Of a stretch of DNA of 64,000 nt, positions 38,073 to 47,100 are shown piece after piece. Position 1 is the stretch's first letter, and each line of letters starts with the position of its first letter. Under the pieces are notes generated by a model, which worked only from the letters and a program-made list of their open reading frames with translations, was not told where the DNA came from and did not search any database. The stretch spans positions 3,633,576 to 3,697,575 of the forward strand of contig NC_053115.1 of NCBI RefSeq assembly GCF_010015445.1, written 5' to 3'. A program made the translations under genes and the position numbers. Source of the stretch: Perca fluviatilis (lineage: Eukaryota > Chordata > Actinopteri > Perciformes > Percidae).

Positions 38073-38121
38073 CTACAAGTACTGCTCCCTTTTCTCTGGT
38101 GGGGTACTTTTAACATTTGGT
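38073..38121 (-). CDS. cldn19: cldn19 alternative terminal exon 5 (long form, 15 new residues)
   Basis: A long pyrimidine tract and tgcag acceptor (38122-38145) precede 49 coding bases. Joined to the alternative exon-4 donor, two bases (GA) plus A make Glu207, followed by [15 protein letters not shown] and a TAG stop at 38073-38075. The protein is then 222 aa. Mammalian claudin-19 has a comparable longer form in which the tail after ALA-ARG-GLU continues with Pro-x-Val-Lys, and the fish tail keeps REPxVK. The call rests on splice phase, length and this similarity. No transcript evidence is available here. Confidence 0.8.
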
Positions 38122-41100
38122 CTGCAATTCAAAAGGGAAAAAAAAAGACACAGTCAAAGTTCAGTCACAGCGCACAAAATAAACCCAAAAGACACATTTA
38201 CAAAAACACCCAGAGGTCATAGGATAGAAGTGAAATCATAAATCAGCGCAACATAACCACAAAGGGTTTTCAACTCATTGTTAACTTTCGGCCAGTAATG
38301 GGACAGAGGAGGGTGTGGGAGGTGGAGCAGAGGGTCGACAGGCTGAAATGGAGGAGGACGCCTCATTTCTTAAATAGAAGGTCTGATCACATATCCTTTA
38401 AGAGTCCATATTTACAGAAAAGGCTCAGAAGGTATAGGGGAAAAATGGGAAAAGACAATGCATCTTGGTTCCAATTCAAACTGATAAGGTGCAGATGTAC
38501 TGAAGAAAACAGATATTCTACTACAAGAGGTCCAACTCTAGGGTCTAAGAGATAAGCGGCAAGAGGAAAGACAGTGGTTGGACAGGTCGGACAGTCCTCG
38601 ATAAAAAGGCGGGGGCTGATCAGTCAGGGAAACTAGTTTCACTCAACAACTCTGCCCTGAATTAGAGGAGAGAAGAAGAAGACAGTCAGAGAAGAACAGG
38701 ATTAGAAGACAGAAGGGGAAATAAAAGACACATCAAGACCTCTCAGATTCTCACAACAGCTGTGATGTGTTAGAAAGAAAGCTTGATTGTTAAGATGTGA
38801 GCAAAAAAGATAGAAAGTCAGTGAGTATGTGTACATGCACATTAATATATCACTATTATTATCCCGAATATGACAATATTCCGAATTTGATACGGGTCAT
38901 GTAAACAGCATATTCCGTTTGGATATGACGAATAAGGCCTTTTCTGATTAAGATGTGGAATATGCCGGTATTATTTAGGTTTTAGAAGCATTCTTTGGAC
39001 ATGTATACAGCACATTCGGAATATGCGTCTCAATCTGGGGTTTCACCGCAATTTGTGACAGTTTACGGCCTCATGCCTGTTTACGGCTAACGGTCAGCTC
39101 TGTGCGTTGCTGTGGTTGTTGTACACAAACCAACCAGCCAACAGTTTGCAAGGCTGCGGTAGAGATGCATTCCCCAAAAATAAGTCCACATTTCTGGTCA
39201 GAAGGAGCAACACAGCTACTTTTAAATATTATGAAAGGCACAAACATCTCAACACCAATGTTTTTCAAGAAGGTGGTCGAAGGAACGAAAGAGGGAGGCT
39301 GTGTTCGCACGGTCGAACGGTGCCATGTCATTTCTCCGACGCTCCATTGTTCCGAACTCTCAATAACCCGAAAAATTCCCTTTGGTCCTACAGCCCACTA
39401 GTCCGACCCTCTGCTCTGACATCCCATTGTTCCGACCACGTAGGCTTTTGTGAATCACCTCCCATAATCTAAAATCTGAATCAAAAATAATAAGAAAAAT
39501 TACTTTTCTCAAGCTTACTAACACATTTATAACTTTAAAAAACTGAAATAATAATGTAGGCTAAGTTCAAAGTCCAATAGGGTAAAGTTAGTTTTGGGTT
39601 GGATATATATATTTCCATGAGCCTGTGATAATAATGAATAGGAATGGGGCATATCCCTGCAATACCCGATGTGAAATGATCAGTGAGAAGACGCCTCACC
39701 TTGGCTGTTTCAAACTGGAAACTTCAGGATTCCCGACATGTTAAACAAGGCAAAAATCCTAAAGAAATATTATAAATAATTGTCCCTAACCCTATATGGT
39801 CGGAACAATGGGATGTCGGAGAAGAGGGTTTATTTTTCCGAAAACAAAGGGACGTCGGACTAGTGGGCTGTAGGACCAAAGGGAATTTTTGGGGTTATTG
39901 AGAGGTCAGAACAATGGCGCGTCGTTTATTTTTCACGGCTGCATGTAAACGTGAATATTAGTGGAATGTTCTCTTTCATTAGCCATGTACACAGCTTAGT
40001 TCGGAATAGGGGCAGGAACCGGAATAATACGTGTATGTAAACATAGTCCGTAAGAAGGAGCATGGCAGCTGATGCTACATGTCAGCTCGCCAGTAATCTA
40101 CAGTTTAAAGAGATTACATATTGCAAATAAATATTAAGAATTATGGACTAAGTGATGAACATTAAGTCATGTTTATCTGGTTGTAGTCTGCTTAAGTTAG
40201 CTGCTTGTTCATCAGCTTTATTTTTAAGGAATAGTTTGATATTTTGGGAAATACACTTGCTGGCTTTCTTGCTGAGAGTTAGATGTGAAGATCATGAGAG
40301 TGGCATCGATCTTCTCATCGAACTTCAGGCAATAAAAAAAGCAAATAAACTTACTTCCAAAAATGTCAAATAATGTATATTTTCTTTTCTTTGGACATAG
40401 CTTTACAGGTAGTTATTTATCAGACTTGTTGTTGAGCAATCCCTATTCAAAGCACAGCTGCTAATGACAGACCAGTGACACCTCACATCCCCCTTTTATT
40501 TAAAGGGCGCAAGGAATTCCCTATAGACCTACAACCCCCCCAACCTGACAATAACAGAGCACGCCACAAACAAGTGTCTACCAAGAAGAGAAGGCCATAT
40601 GATTGGGAAATGGGGGGACTGGGAGCAATTCTGAGAAAGGTTAATGGCTTTATTATCTGGAACAGTGATGGACCAGCGCTTTTAGAAACACAAATGAAGA
40701 CAAATTGATGTGGGAGCATCAAGAGGGAACTCAAGAGCCAATTTATCCGACTGTTGACTTTTACAGGCTCTAACGTGGGGCACATTTTCAATATGCTGCA
40801 GATATCTATTGTAATTCATCCTAGTGGAGTAGTTTAGTGGTTTGCTAAACACCCATAGTTCTACTGCATCAAAGTTAAATAGACATTGTTTATATTATTT
40901 ACAATTGTTTAAAGCTTCATGCTAGCTAAAAGTCCATTGTAAAGTAATAATGCTAGTGTCTCATAGCTTATGATCCCCAGTGAGATTATACCTGTGTGAG
41001 AAGTACATGCATTAGTTAAGATCTTAGACATTGGTTATACAGGAAATTATGAGATGGAGTGTATGAATCTGAAATGATGATTAGGAAATGGAGGATGGTG

Positions 41101-44100: not shown

Positions 44101-47100
44101 GCCGCCGCCCAGCCCACAAACAGGGCCGAGCCGAACTCATACCTGTGCAAGAGAGAGGGGAAAAGGTTGGACAGAGGACAGGTATACAGTATGGCTGTGA
44201 CTGACTCACTGCCTCACTCACACAGTATAGAAGAAATATTAATTTAAAGAATATTGTGTCTAAATTAGTAGTTTTACTCAAAACCCCACTTTTCTGAGTC
44301 TGGAAATTACCTTCATGACCCATGTGAGAGTATGATACGTCCTGTCTGTCTCGAGATCTTGACACACGCCTTTGTATTTCCTTATTATTTTGTATTTACT
44401 CATTTTTAGTAGGCCCATCTCTAAAGGGAGAGCAAATGCAAATCCCTTTGCAACGGGAAACAGCAATCTACAAGCTAGCAAGCTACACGCCAAAAATGGC
44501 AGCTTTTGAAGAACATTTGGATCGTGTAATAATCCTGCTTGGTTCTTTCGGTGAATGATTGTAAAGATTTACAAAGACTACGTTTCTTTACTGCATTTCC
44601 TCTCTAACTGGGACGTTTTGGGGCCAATTGGTGGGATTGCTGTAGACGAAGTACACATGGAGATACACAGGTAAGAGCCAATGAGGTTTAACCATGTATC
44701 AGCTAATTTAAATAGCTCACGTTACTGTATTGTGTGATCAGTTAGCTTCATTTAATATTGTATGTGGCATTTTCTTTTGCGGGGTGCAAATGTTCCACCA
44801 AAACAAGTTCCTTCCCGAGACTATTTTGCAGAGCCGCCGTCGCTGCGTCTGCAGCTTAGAGCCGCCCAAGACTTTTGGATTATGTAAAGAAACTAGCAAC
44901 ATTTGCCTGATGCTTCAAAACAGTCCCATTGGTTTGTGGAGATCTGCTATGAGTCGTTGAGTTTGCCGTTACGGGCGCAGCCATCCTGGTTGCGGATGTG
45001 ACGATTTTAGGGAGGAGTGAGGGAGCAGTCCTTACACTCTACGTTACGTAGTGGCAATCACATCATAGCCAACCGCTTTATTGTCGATTTTAAAATTAAC
45101 GAGACCATAATTTAAAAAATTAACATCATTCTGTGTTGCAGAAGACTTCAAACTAGCGAAATCAATCCAACCAGCTATTAGGCTAACTGAAATAAAACCA
45201 TGCCAATCTCTAGGTATGGTGAAGGGTATGTGATGATGTGGGGGTATGGTGAAGGGTATGTGATGATGTGGGGGGGGTATTTTAATTTGAAAGGCCAAGG
45301 GAACTTTATCAGGATGCATAGTATCCTGGATCCATGAAATAACTGGCCTTTAAAAATAAACATCTGCCTGCCTCTATGGGAATTTAACATAGGGGTGTAC
45401 TGACTTATGCCCCCTGTATTTTAAGGAAGAACATTTATTTATTTAGGATACATTATTCATTCACAAAGAAAATTGGTGTCCTTAAAGGTTGGAGTTTTCC
45501 TCATTTTTTTTATTAAGGCATTAGGATCAATGATTTTTTATTCCTCATTTTAGTCAACCTTAGCATGGGTATGTAAACTTATGAGCACAACTTTAAAGTG
45601 CACGATTCTTCTGCATCGAGTACTTTTACTTTTAACCCTTGTGTTGTCTTCCCGTCAACCTTGAAAAAAACTATGTTTTTGACGCGTTTCTTTTGCTTTT
45701 TCTAACGTCTTAAATTGTAAAAATTTTCTAATACACATTTTCAGCGCTTATTTCTACGTCCCACATTTTATGATATAAAACAAAAATTGAAAACCGGTCA
45801 ATTTGACCCGAAGTCAACACAACACTATTACTTAATAGTACATTTTCCTGATGATACTTACATACTTTTACTTAAGTAACAGTTTCAATGCTTTACTTGT
45901 AACAGAGTATTATATAATATTTTGGTATTAGTACATGTACTTAAGTAAAGGCTCTGAATACTTCTTTCACCACTGATTATTTTACACACCTGGCGTTGGG
46001 TGGTGTATTTGGGTTGAAGAACTGATAGGACACCTGAGTGGCATACCAGGACACAGACACCAGTGTACATAGACCTGTGGAGGGAGAAAAGATTAACATG
46101 AGAGCATCAGTTCTCTGGATCAGTTTCTGTAAGCCGTGCAAGCATTCAGTGTAGCTACAACAACAACAATAAAACACACAAATGAATTGGAGAATCTTTT
46201 CTAATTTTCTCCCCTGGGCTTGCGGTTTATGTCTGAGGTCAGCGACTAATGCCTCGAAAATGACCACTTCCCGTTTACAGCAGGGACTCTAATTACAGAG
46301 AGAAGATCCCCGGTGTGAGATATAAAGCTAGAAAAATACCAAAAACACTCTTCCTTAATGCGCTGGCTGCGGGAGATAGTGCAGTATATTATTGGTTTCA
46401 AACTAACCAAAGCGTTTACAGAACACAGCAGAAATCCCACCTGCGAGCAGGAACAGAGCTCCTCCGGTGACAGCGATGCGGGTTTTGCTGACTGGGTTGT
46501 TATCTCCCACCTTAGTGCACTTCATGCCCACCACGCTGACGATGATGCCGATAAAGCCCAGCAGTACTGACACTACCATAAGGGCCCGACATGTCTGGAT
46601 GTGGACTAGATAAAGGAAAGGAAAGGAGATGGCAGGGATTGCAGAGTGGAGCACAGAATGGTGAGTGGTGATACAACAGAAGATATGGAAGAAAGGGAAG
46701 GAGAAAGAGGGGAGAGAAGAAAGTGGTGAGGAGATGAGAAACAAATAGAGTCTTTTAATCTGTCACTTGGAATAAAACGCACATTTTTGGACATTAAAGT
46801 GATGGTTATAAGGGAATGAAGCAACACACGCCATGCAGGATTGATGGGAGACCGCATGCATTTCTGACAGAAAGCTCATTAGGGAGTCCACCACTGTTAA
46901 TTCCATATTTTCATTTCCAGAGGTGACTTTCTTGGCCAAGATCTGGGACCATAGAAATAAAATGGATAGAAAGGCCATTGAACTGTTTGCTGGGGTCATT
47001 TGTTTAGTACAAAAAAACTGTCTCCCATTGCCAGACTCTCCTCCACAGCGCTGCGAAGGAAGGTCTGGCTAGTCCACACAGCATTCCAGGATGGGAGAAA

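Follow-up and report, generated by a model that had tools for sequence, protein, structure and literature searches.

A predicted switch between three C-terminal ends of claudin-19 in Perca fluviatilis

We analysed a window of 64,000 nucleotides from Perca fluviatilis (NCBI RefSeq assembly GCF_010015445.1, contig NC_053115.1, positions 3,633,576 to 3,697,575 of the forward strand), whose minus strand carries the claudin gene cldn19; all positions below are those of the window. Our comparisons suggest that the last coding exon of teleost claudin-19 works as a tail switch, in which a single donor governs the choice between three protein ends: EYV, the usual claudin PDZ ligand for ZO proteins, when exon 4 is read through, and two alternative tails, 5b and 5a, when it is spliced. 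We give this reading a probability of roughly 0.85. The donor is spelled by the codons of the ligand itself, and the case for it comes from the two tails that lie downstream.

The gene and its hidden donor

The sequence-only reading that preceded this analysis had named the gene cldn19, and the comparisons agree. The top database match of its protein is fish claudin-19 (P0001; 459 bits, 91% identity), far above the best rows named claudin-7 (274 bits) and claudin-1 (269 bits); PMP22_Claudin (PF00822) matches the whole protein (E 1.1e-39; 136.4 bits against a cut-off of 26.7); and the top PDB match is a mouse claudin-19 construct, 3x29 (E 4.1e-96). Judged by match scores rather than by a tree, the gene is thus nearer to claudin-19 than to claudin-1 or -7. 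Exon 1 also encodes the GLW-C-C signature, the claudin-family motif of the first extracellular loop. The full coding sequence assembles in frame from five coding segments with GT/AG borders, as follows:

60271..60493, minus strand: exon 1, coding part, 223 nucleotides; ATG at 60493; donor ACA/GTGAGT
46441..46605, minus strand: exon 2, 165 nucleotides
45990..46074, minus strand: exon 3, 85 nucleotides
43986..44142, minus strand: exon 4, read-through form, 157 nucleotides with the stop included; AREYV-stop; isoform of 209 amino acids
44142-43996, minus strand: exon 4, spliced form, 147 nucleotides, up to the hidden donor
43990..43996, minus strand: hidden donor; last exon base 43996, GTACGT at 43995-43990; codons GAG TAC GTG
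38620..38656, minus strand: exon 5a, acceptor after TTCAG; isoform of 218 amino acids
38073..38121, minus strand: exon 5b, coding part, 49 nucleotides; isoform of 222 amino acids
43716..43721, minus strand: candidate intronic poly(A) signal for the EYV isoform; first AATAAA, 265 nucleotides past the read-through stop
37903..37908, minus strand: candidate poly(A) signal after 5b; first AATAAA, 165 nucleotides past the 5b stop
37984, minus strand: ATTAAA after 5b
37138..37143, minus strand: candidate distal poly(A) signal; second AATAAA, 930 nucleotides past the 5b stop

The donor, GGGA/GTACGT, lies across the codons GAG TAC GTG (Glu-Tyr-Val), hidden in the Glu-Tyr codons as the sequence-only reading had described: its six intron bases take in the third base of Glu, all three of Tyr and the opening two of Val. 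Every GAG-TAY-GTN contains GTAYGT, and the GT is lost with GAA or with Asp codons. A YV ligand stands at the C terminus of the read-through isoform only (REYV); both spliced isoforms lack it.

By its own letters the hidden donor ranks last in strength among the four donors of the gene, with a U1 duplex of -2.3 kcal/mol against -5.2, -10.3 and -7.2 for the others, and with a fit to five of nine consensus positions where the others fit 7, 7 and 8. Across the gene span, 34% of 1481 GT sites pair with U1 equally well or better, and 45% fit the consensus equally well or better. Since the site is therefore not recognisable from its own letters, the case for it rests on the downstream tails. Its weakness can be attributed to the EYV codons that spell it, and for the same reason it would stay weak and be kept together with the PDZ motif. 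Where a composite terminal exon has a weak donor, transcripts are expected to divide between intronic polyadenylation and splicing, and the weak donor found here fits a split choice between read-through and splicing. On the sense strand a CA array (TG on the plus strand) begins about 120 nucleotides past the hidden donor (43798-43874; 38 perfect copies). It might be an hnRNP L element; its position is unremarkable, because a count by eye gives eight long arrays on the same strand within the 64 kb.

The 5b tail and its relatives

Splicing exon 4 to the 5b acceptor (43996/38121) yields 222 residues, and reading it through yields 209, ending in AREYV; the junction had been placed exactly by the sequence-only reading, and both ends are in frame. 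We scored the tail opened by each of the 397 AG dinucleotides from 43995 to 37000, without gaps, against the tails of relatives, and compared the scores with 200 two-base-block shuffles per reference tail. The acceptor at 38121 ranked first for the salmonid (score 71), cyprinid (67) and ray (41) tails, for which the shuffle maxima were 31, 28 and 29. It was also first for the turtle tail, with a score of 20 that lies below the shuffle maximum of 30 in this ungapped scan. Against the placental tail it came only third (score 10; shuffle maximum 32), and so a link between fish and placental tails is not visible directly. In gapped comparisons, the score of the window tail with the ray, turtle and salamander tails was reached by none of 500 shuffles in each case; the links to bird (1/500), snake (7/500) and marsupial (8/500) were weaker. 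Between other lineages, turtle and marsupial tails exceeded all 500 shuffles, and two marsupial-placental comparisons were reached by 3 and 13 of 2000. As 54 tail pairs were compared (36 + 18), a score reached by only a few of 500 or 2000 shuffles is weak evidence. A chance open frame as the source of the 5b tail is rejected by the acceptor scan and the pairwise shuffles together, and these comparisons support a real alternative 5b tail with relatives from rays to placental mammals.

The relatives were sampled, from a database clustered at 90% identity, as 131 proteins, the best 120 of 817 matches and 11 from a search directed at the 5a tail; a further search added none. Lineages were taken from row names and standard taxonomy. 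Conservation of the 49-base-pair frame, which the sequence-only reading had proposed as a check on the exon, held at the protein level: a 5b-type tail is present in 40 of the 131. These are 11 teleost rows (one, P0060, unnamed and placed by sequence), four from three ray species, one salamander, three turtle or crocodilian, four squamate, seven bird, one marsupial, one monotreme and eight placental rows, with a different upstream join in two of the last (P0076 and P0102). Other or incomplete ends are found in 15 rows and in the frog row P0014, and the lamprey row (P0075) ends in NKEYV. Several rows carry the NCBI labels isoform X1, X2 or X3. Two of them, P0102 (ground squirrel isoform X3) and P0047 (sawfish isoform X2), keep the 5b tail on a shorter upstream part; in P0102 the end of exon 3 (..NAR) is joined straight to the tail.

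Could the hidden donor be merely a chance by-product of the EYV codons, and the alternative tails neutral splicing noise? GTAYGT is indeed inevitable in GAG TAY GTN, and the 5b tails of the rows compared vary in length (10 to 17 residues) as well as in their letters. However, rays, birds and lineages between them have the same kind of brief open frame, which in most non-mammalian rows closes with EQxL or something near it, and the similarity of ray and window tails exceeds every shuffle. We therefore consider this explanation very improbable.

The passerine rows (P0046, P0053-P0056, P0058, P0059, P0061, P0065, P0077, P0080 and P0116) offer a separate observation: none of the 12 has the 5b tail, which is present in seven other bird rows, with further non-passerine rows also lacking it. 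Five of the 12 end in EFV and one in DYV, changes that would weaken or remove the hidden donor; many of these annotations are partial.

The 5a tail and repeats of the window

The sequence-only reading had described a design with two ends, which must now be extended by a third. From the same donor at 43996, an acceptor whose sequence runs ..CTCCTCTAATTCAG, with first exon base 38656, opens another in-frame ending, 535 nucleotides upstream of the 5b acceptor, with a stop that ends at 38620 and a predicted isoform of 218 residues. Its pyrimidine tract is the richest among the acceptors listed (18 of 20), and in the acceptor scan the 5a tail scored 59, the highest shuffle 35. The tail is found in four of the 131 records (P0003, P0005, P0007 and P0067; cod, platyfish, eel and pipefish), all teleost by name, and in each all 11 residues are identical to those of the window; no non-teleost carrier was seen among the 131 rows. 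A search directed at the 5a tail (27 proteins) returned the same four carriers only. Other 5a forms may be concealed by the clustering at 90% identity wherever the representative has a different tail; four is therefore a lower bound, and both the count and the restriction to teleosts are provisional.

If only the EYV and 5b ends were used, 5a would be a cryptic acceptor, or else an artefact of annotation that recurs from one predicted gene set to the next. The rarity of the tail, and the failure of its own search to enlarge the number of carriers, speak for this. Nevertheless, the window DNA has the same 11 residues and stop as the four teleost records, the scan score stands well above its shuffles, and clustering can mask further forms; we regard the two-ended alternative as unlikely.

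Neither AATAAA nor ATTAAA occurs between 38656 and 37984. Therefore, 5a is most simply read as a second acceptor for the last exon that would share the poly(A) site of 5b (candidates at 37908 and 37143), and as such it would have no downstream junction and should escape nonsense-mediated decay. The 5a protein ends in ..FPD, which is not PDZ-like. It also contains an acidic LL stretch reminiscent of a dileucine signal, with a spacing not exactly that of the consensus.

Between exons 4 and 5a, the intron contains a palindromic stretch (39337-39924) with 71-nucleotide arms that are 94% complementary and inner arms of 42 nucleotides, which looks like a non-autonomous transposon. At 2936-4383 on the plus strand lie two overlapping open frames, the first of which (2936-3682) matches the reverse transcriptase family RVT_1 and probably belongs to a LINE-type element. 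By eye, one 30-bp minisatellite unit recurs, in either orientation, at 1-359, at 450-541 and in cldn19 intron 3 (45213-45274).

How the switch may work, and its known counterparts

Based on these comparisons, we propose that exon 4 acts as a composite terminal exon. When splicing passes over its weak internal donor, the transcript would stop within the next intron and the protein would close with the PDZ ligand EYV; when that donor is taken, the 5b or the 5a end would replace the last two residues. The former would be an end of jawed vertebrates (KGPLGV in placentals), and the latter appears in teleost records only, among the rows seen. From the coupling of donor and PDZ codons, a regulated split between the ends is likely. 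We infer that splicing actually occurs at these sites in this species, that poly(A) sites are chosen accordingly, that the choice is regulated by tissue, and that binding to ZO-1/2/3 may be lost or changed in the 5a and 5b isoforms.

Several points weigh against the proposed switch. The junctions in P. fluviatilis are read from DNA and protein comparison and those of the relatives from proteins, whose records mostly resemble automatic predictions. A YV or FV end is the commoner condition in the sample (71 of 131 rows, claudin-1 and -7 included), 5b evolves faster than the claudin body, and the frog tail resembles that of no other lineage (window-frog, 148/500 shuffles). The body of the eel protein is itself about 90% identical, so that its 11 identical 5a residues are not extraordinary on their own. 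The sequence-only reading had held the arrangement to be the same in mammals: records with both types of end bear it out, and no pair of rows from one species with an identical body and two tails, mammalian or other, was found among those seen; the two Salvelinus alpinus rows, P0001 and P0011, differ in their bodies (93% identity) and may be paralogues. Conservation between fish and mammals, also proposed there, stands in so far as relatives extend from rays to placentals, and does not stand as a direct match, since the comparisons of the window tail with placental tails were reached by 309 and 599 of 2000 shuffles and such a match is rejected. The homology of fish and placental tails rests instead on intermediates (turtle or salamander, then marsupial) and on the common splice position. 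A likeness to a mammalian REPxVK tail, noted in the same reading, holds at five of six positions and is not significant by itself; exon 4 supplies the R and most of the E.

The change at the C terminus can be understood in two ways. Exchanging EYV for 5b may mean losing the ZO-binding tail. Alternatively, 5b may be a different PDZ ligand with other partners (EQYL in fish, EQCL in sauropsids, PLGV in placentals), a serious possibility that we would place somewhat short of even odds. Of the 40 5b-type tails, 39 end in L or V (the exception, P0023, ends in G), and fish REQYL retains a Tyr ahead of its hydrophobic last residue. On the other hand, the -2 position is occupied by Q, P, L and similar residues and not by the Ser or Thr of the consensus, and the end drifts from lineage to lineage. 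Returning to the three-way switch, its fullest form would assign a role to each end: EYV as the ZO ligand, 5b as the old gnathostome end and perhaps another PDZ ligand, and 5a, teleost-only so far, maybe in trafficking; with the donor locked to the PDZ codons, lineages that change to EFV or DYV, passerines perhaps among them, would weaken or lose the switch. This elaboration is tentative, and we are rather doubtful that all its parts will hold.

In COS-7 cells, human Cldn19a and Cldn19b are reported to belong to the same class of meshwork-forming claudins; other claudins from which the PDZ ligand was deleted formed smaller and rarer meshworks, without loss of segregation (PMC9411157). From these results, an effect of tail choice on scaffolding, position or turnover is more likely than one on the formation of strands. 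A study of mouse cochlea assayed two splice variants, v1 and v2, one by one and reports v2 among those that rise in development (PMC5784685). In people, claudin-19 mutations lead to magnesium wasting and eye disease. A tail choice that dates to jawed vertebrates would make it probable that the alternative end is functional and not noise; fish with a third end would then offer a system for asking what the PDZ tail is for.

We found no description, in the searchable literature, of the reach of the tail to rays, of the constraint between donor and codons or of the three-way choice, nor any of fish tails or of a comparison of ZO binding between the tails, in a search that most subscription papers lie outside. 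Mammalian CLDN19 resembles the window gene: its protein closes either with the REYV of exon 4 or with RE and 15 further residues of a second tail, as in the ground squirrel (P0036; 224 residues, ..AREPVVKLPASTKGPLGV) and dog (P0043; 211 residues, ..AREYV) records, and the difference of 13 residues between isoforms is the same in both (209/222 and 211/224). The placental tail, PVVKLPASTKGPLGV, which ends in KGPLGV, differs from the 5b tail of the window, and, unlike the window, the mammalian rows seen have no 5a tail. The tail forms are probably those named Cldn19a and Cldn19b. Both names (PMC9411157) and a human CLDN19 transcript, NM_148960, are in print.

Alternative exons are known in claudin-10 and claudin-18 as first exons, not as exons for a C-terminal PDZ ligand. 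In both, alternative splicing gives functionally distinct proteins, which is what we propose for claudin-19. Counterparts also exist in annotated teleost records, in which the 5b tail (Hoplias X1, Labeo X1 and Neolamprologus) and the 5a tail (Gadus X2 and Xiphophorus X2) are identical or nearly so to those of the window; there is no difference in kind, and the window adds one more gene. The arrangement with two tails is thus essentially known, in mammals from named isoforms that probably are the tail forms, and in fish from forms in NCBI and UniRef, the third tail included.

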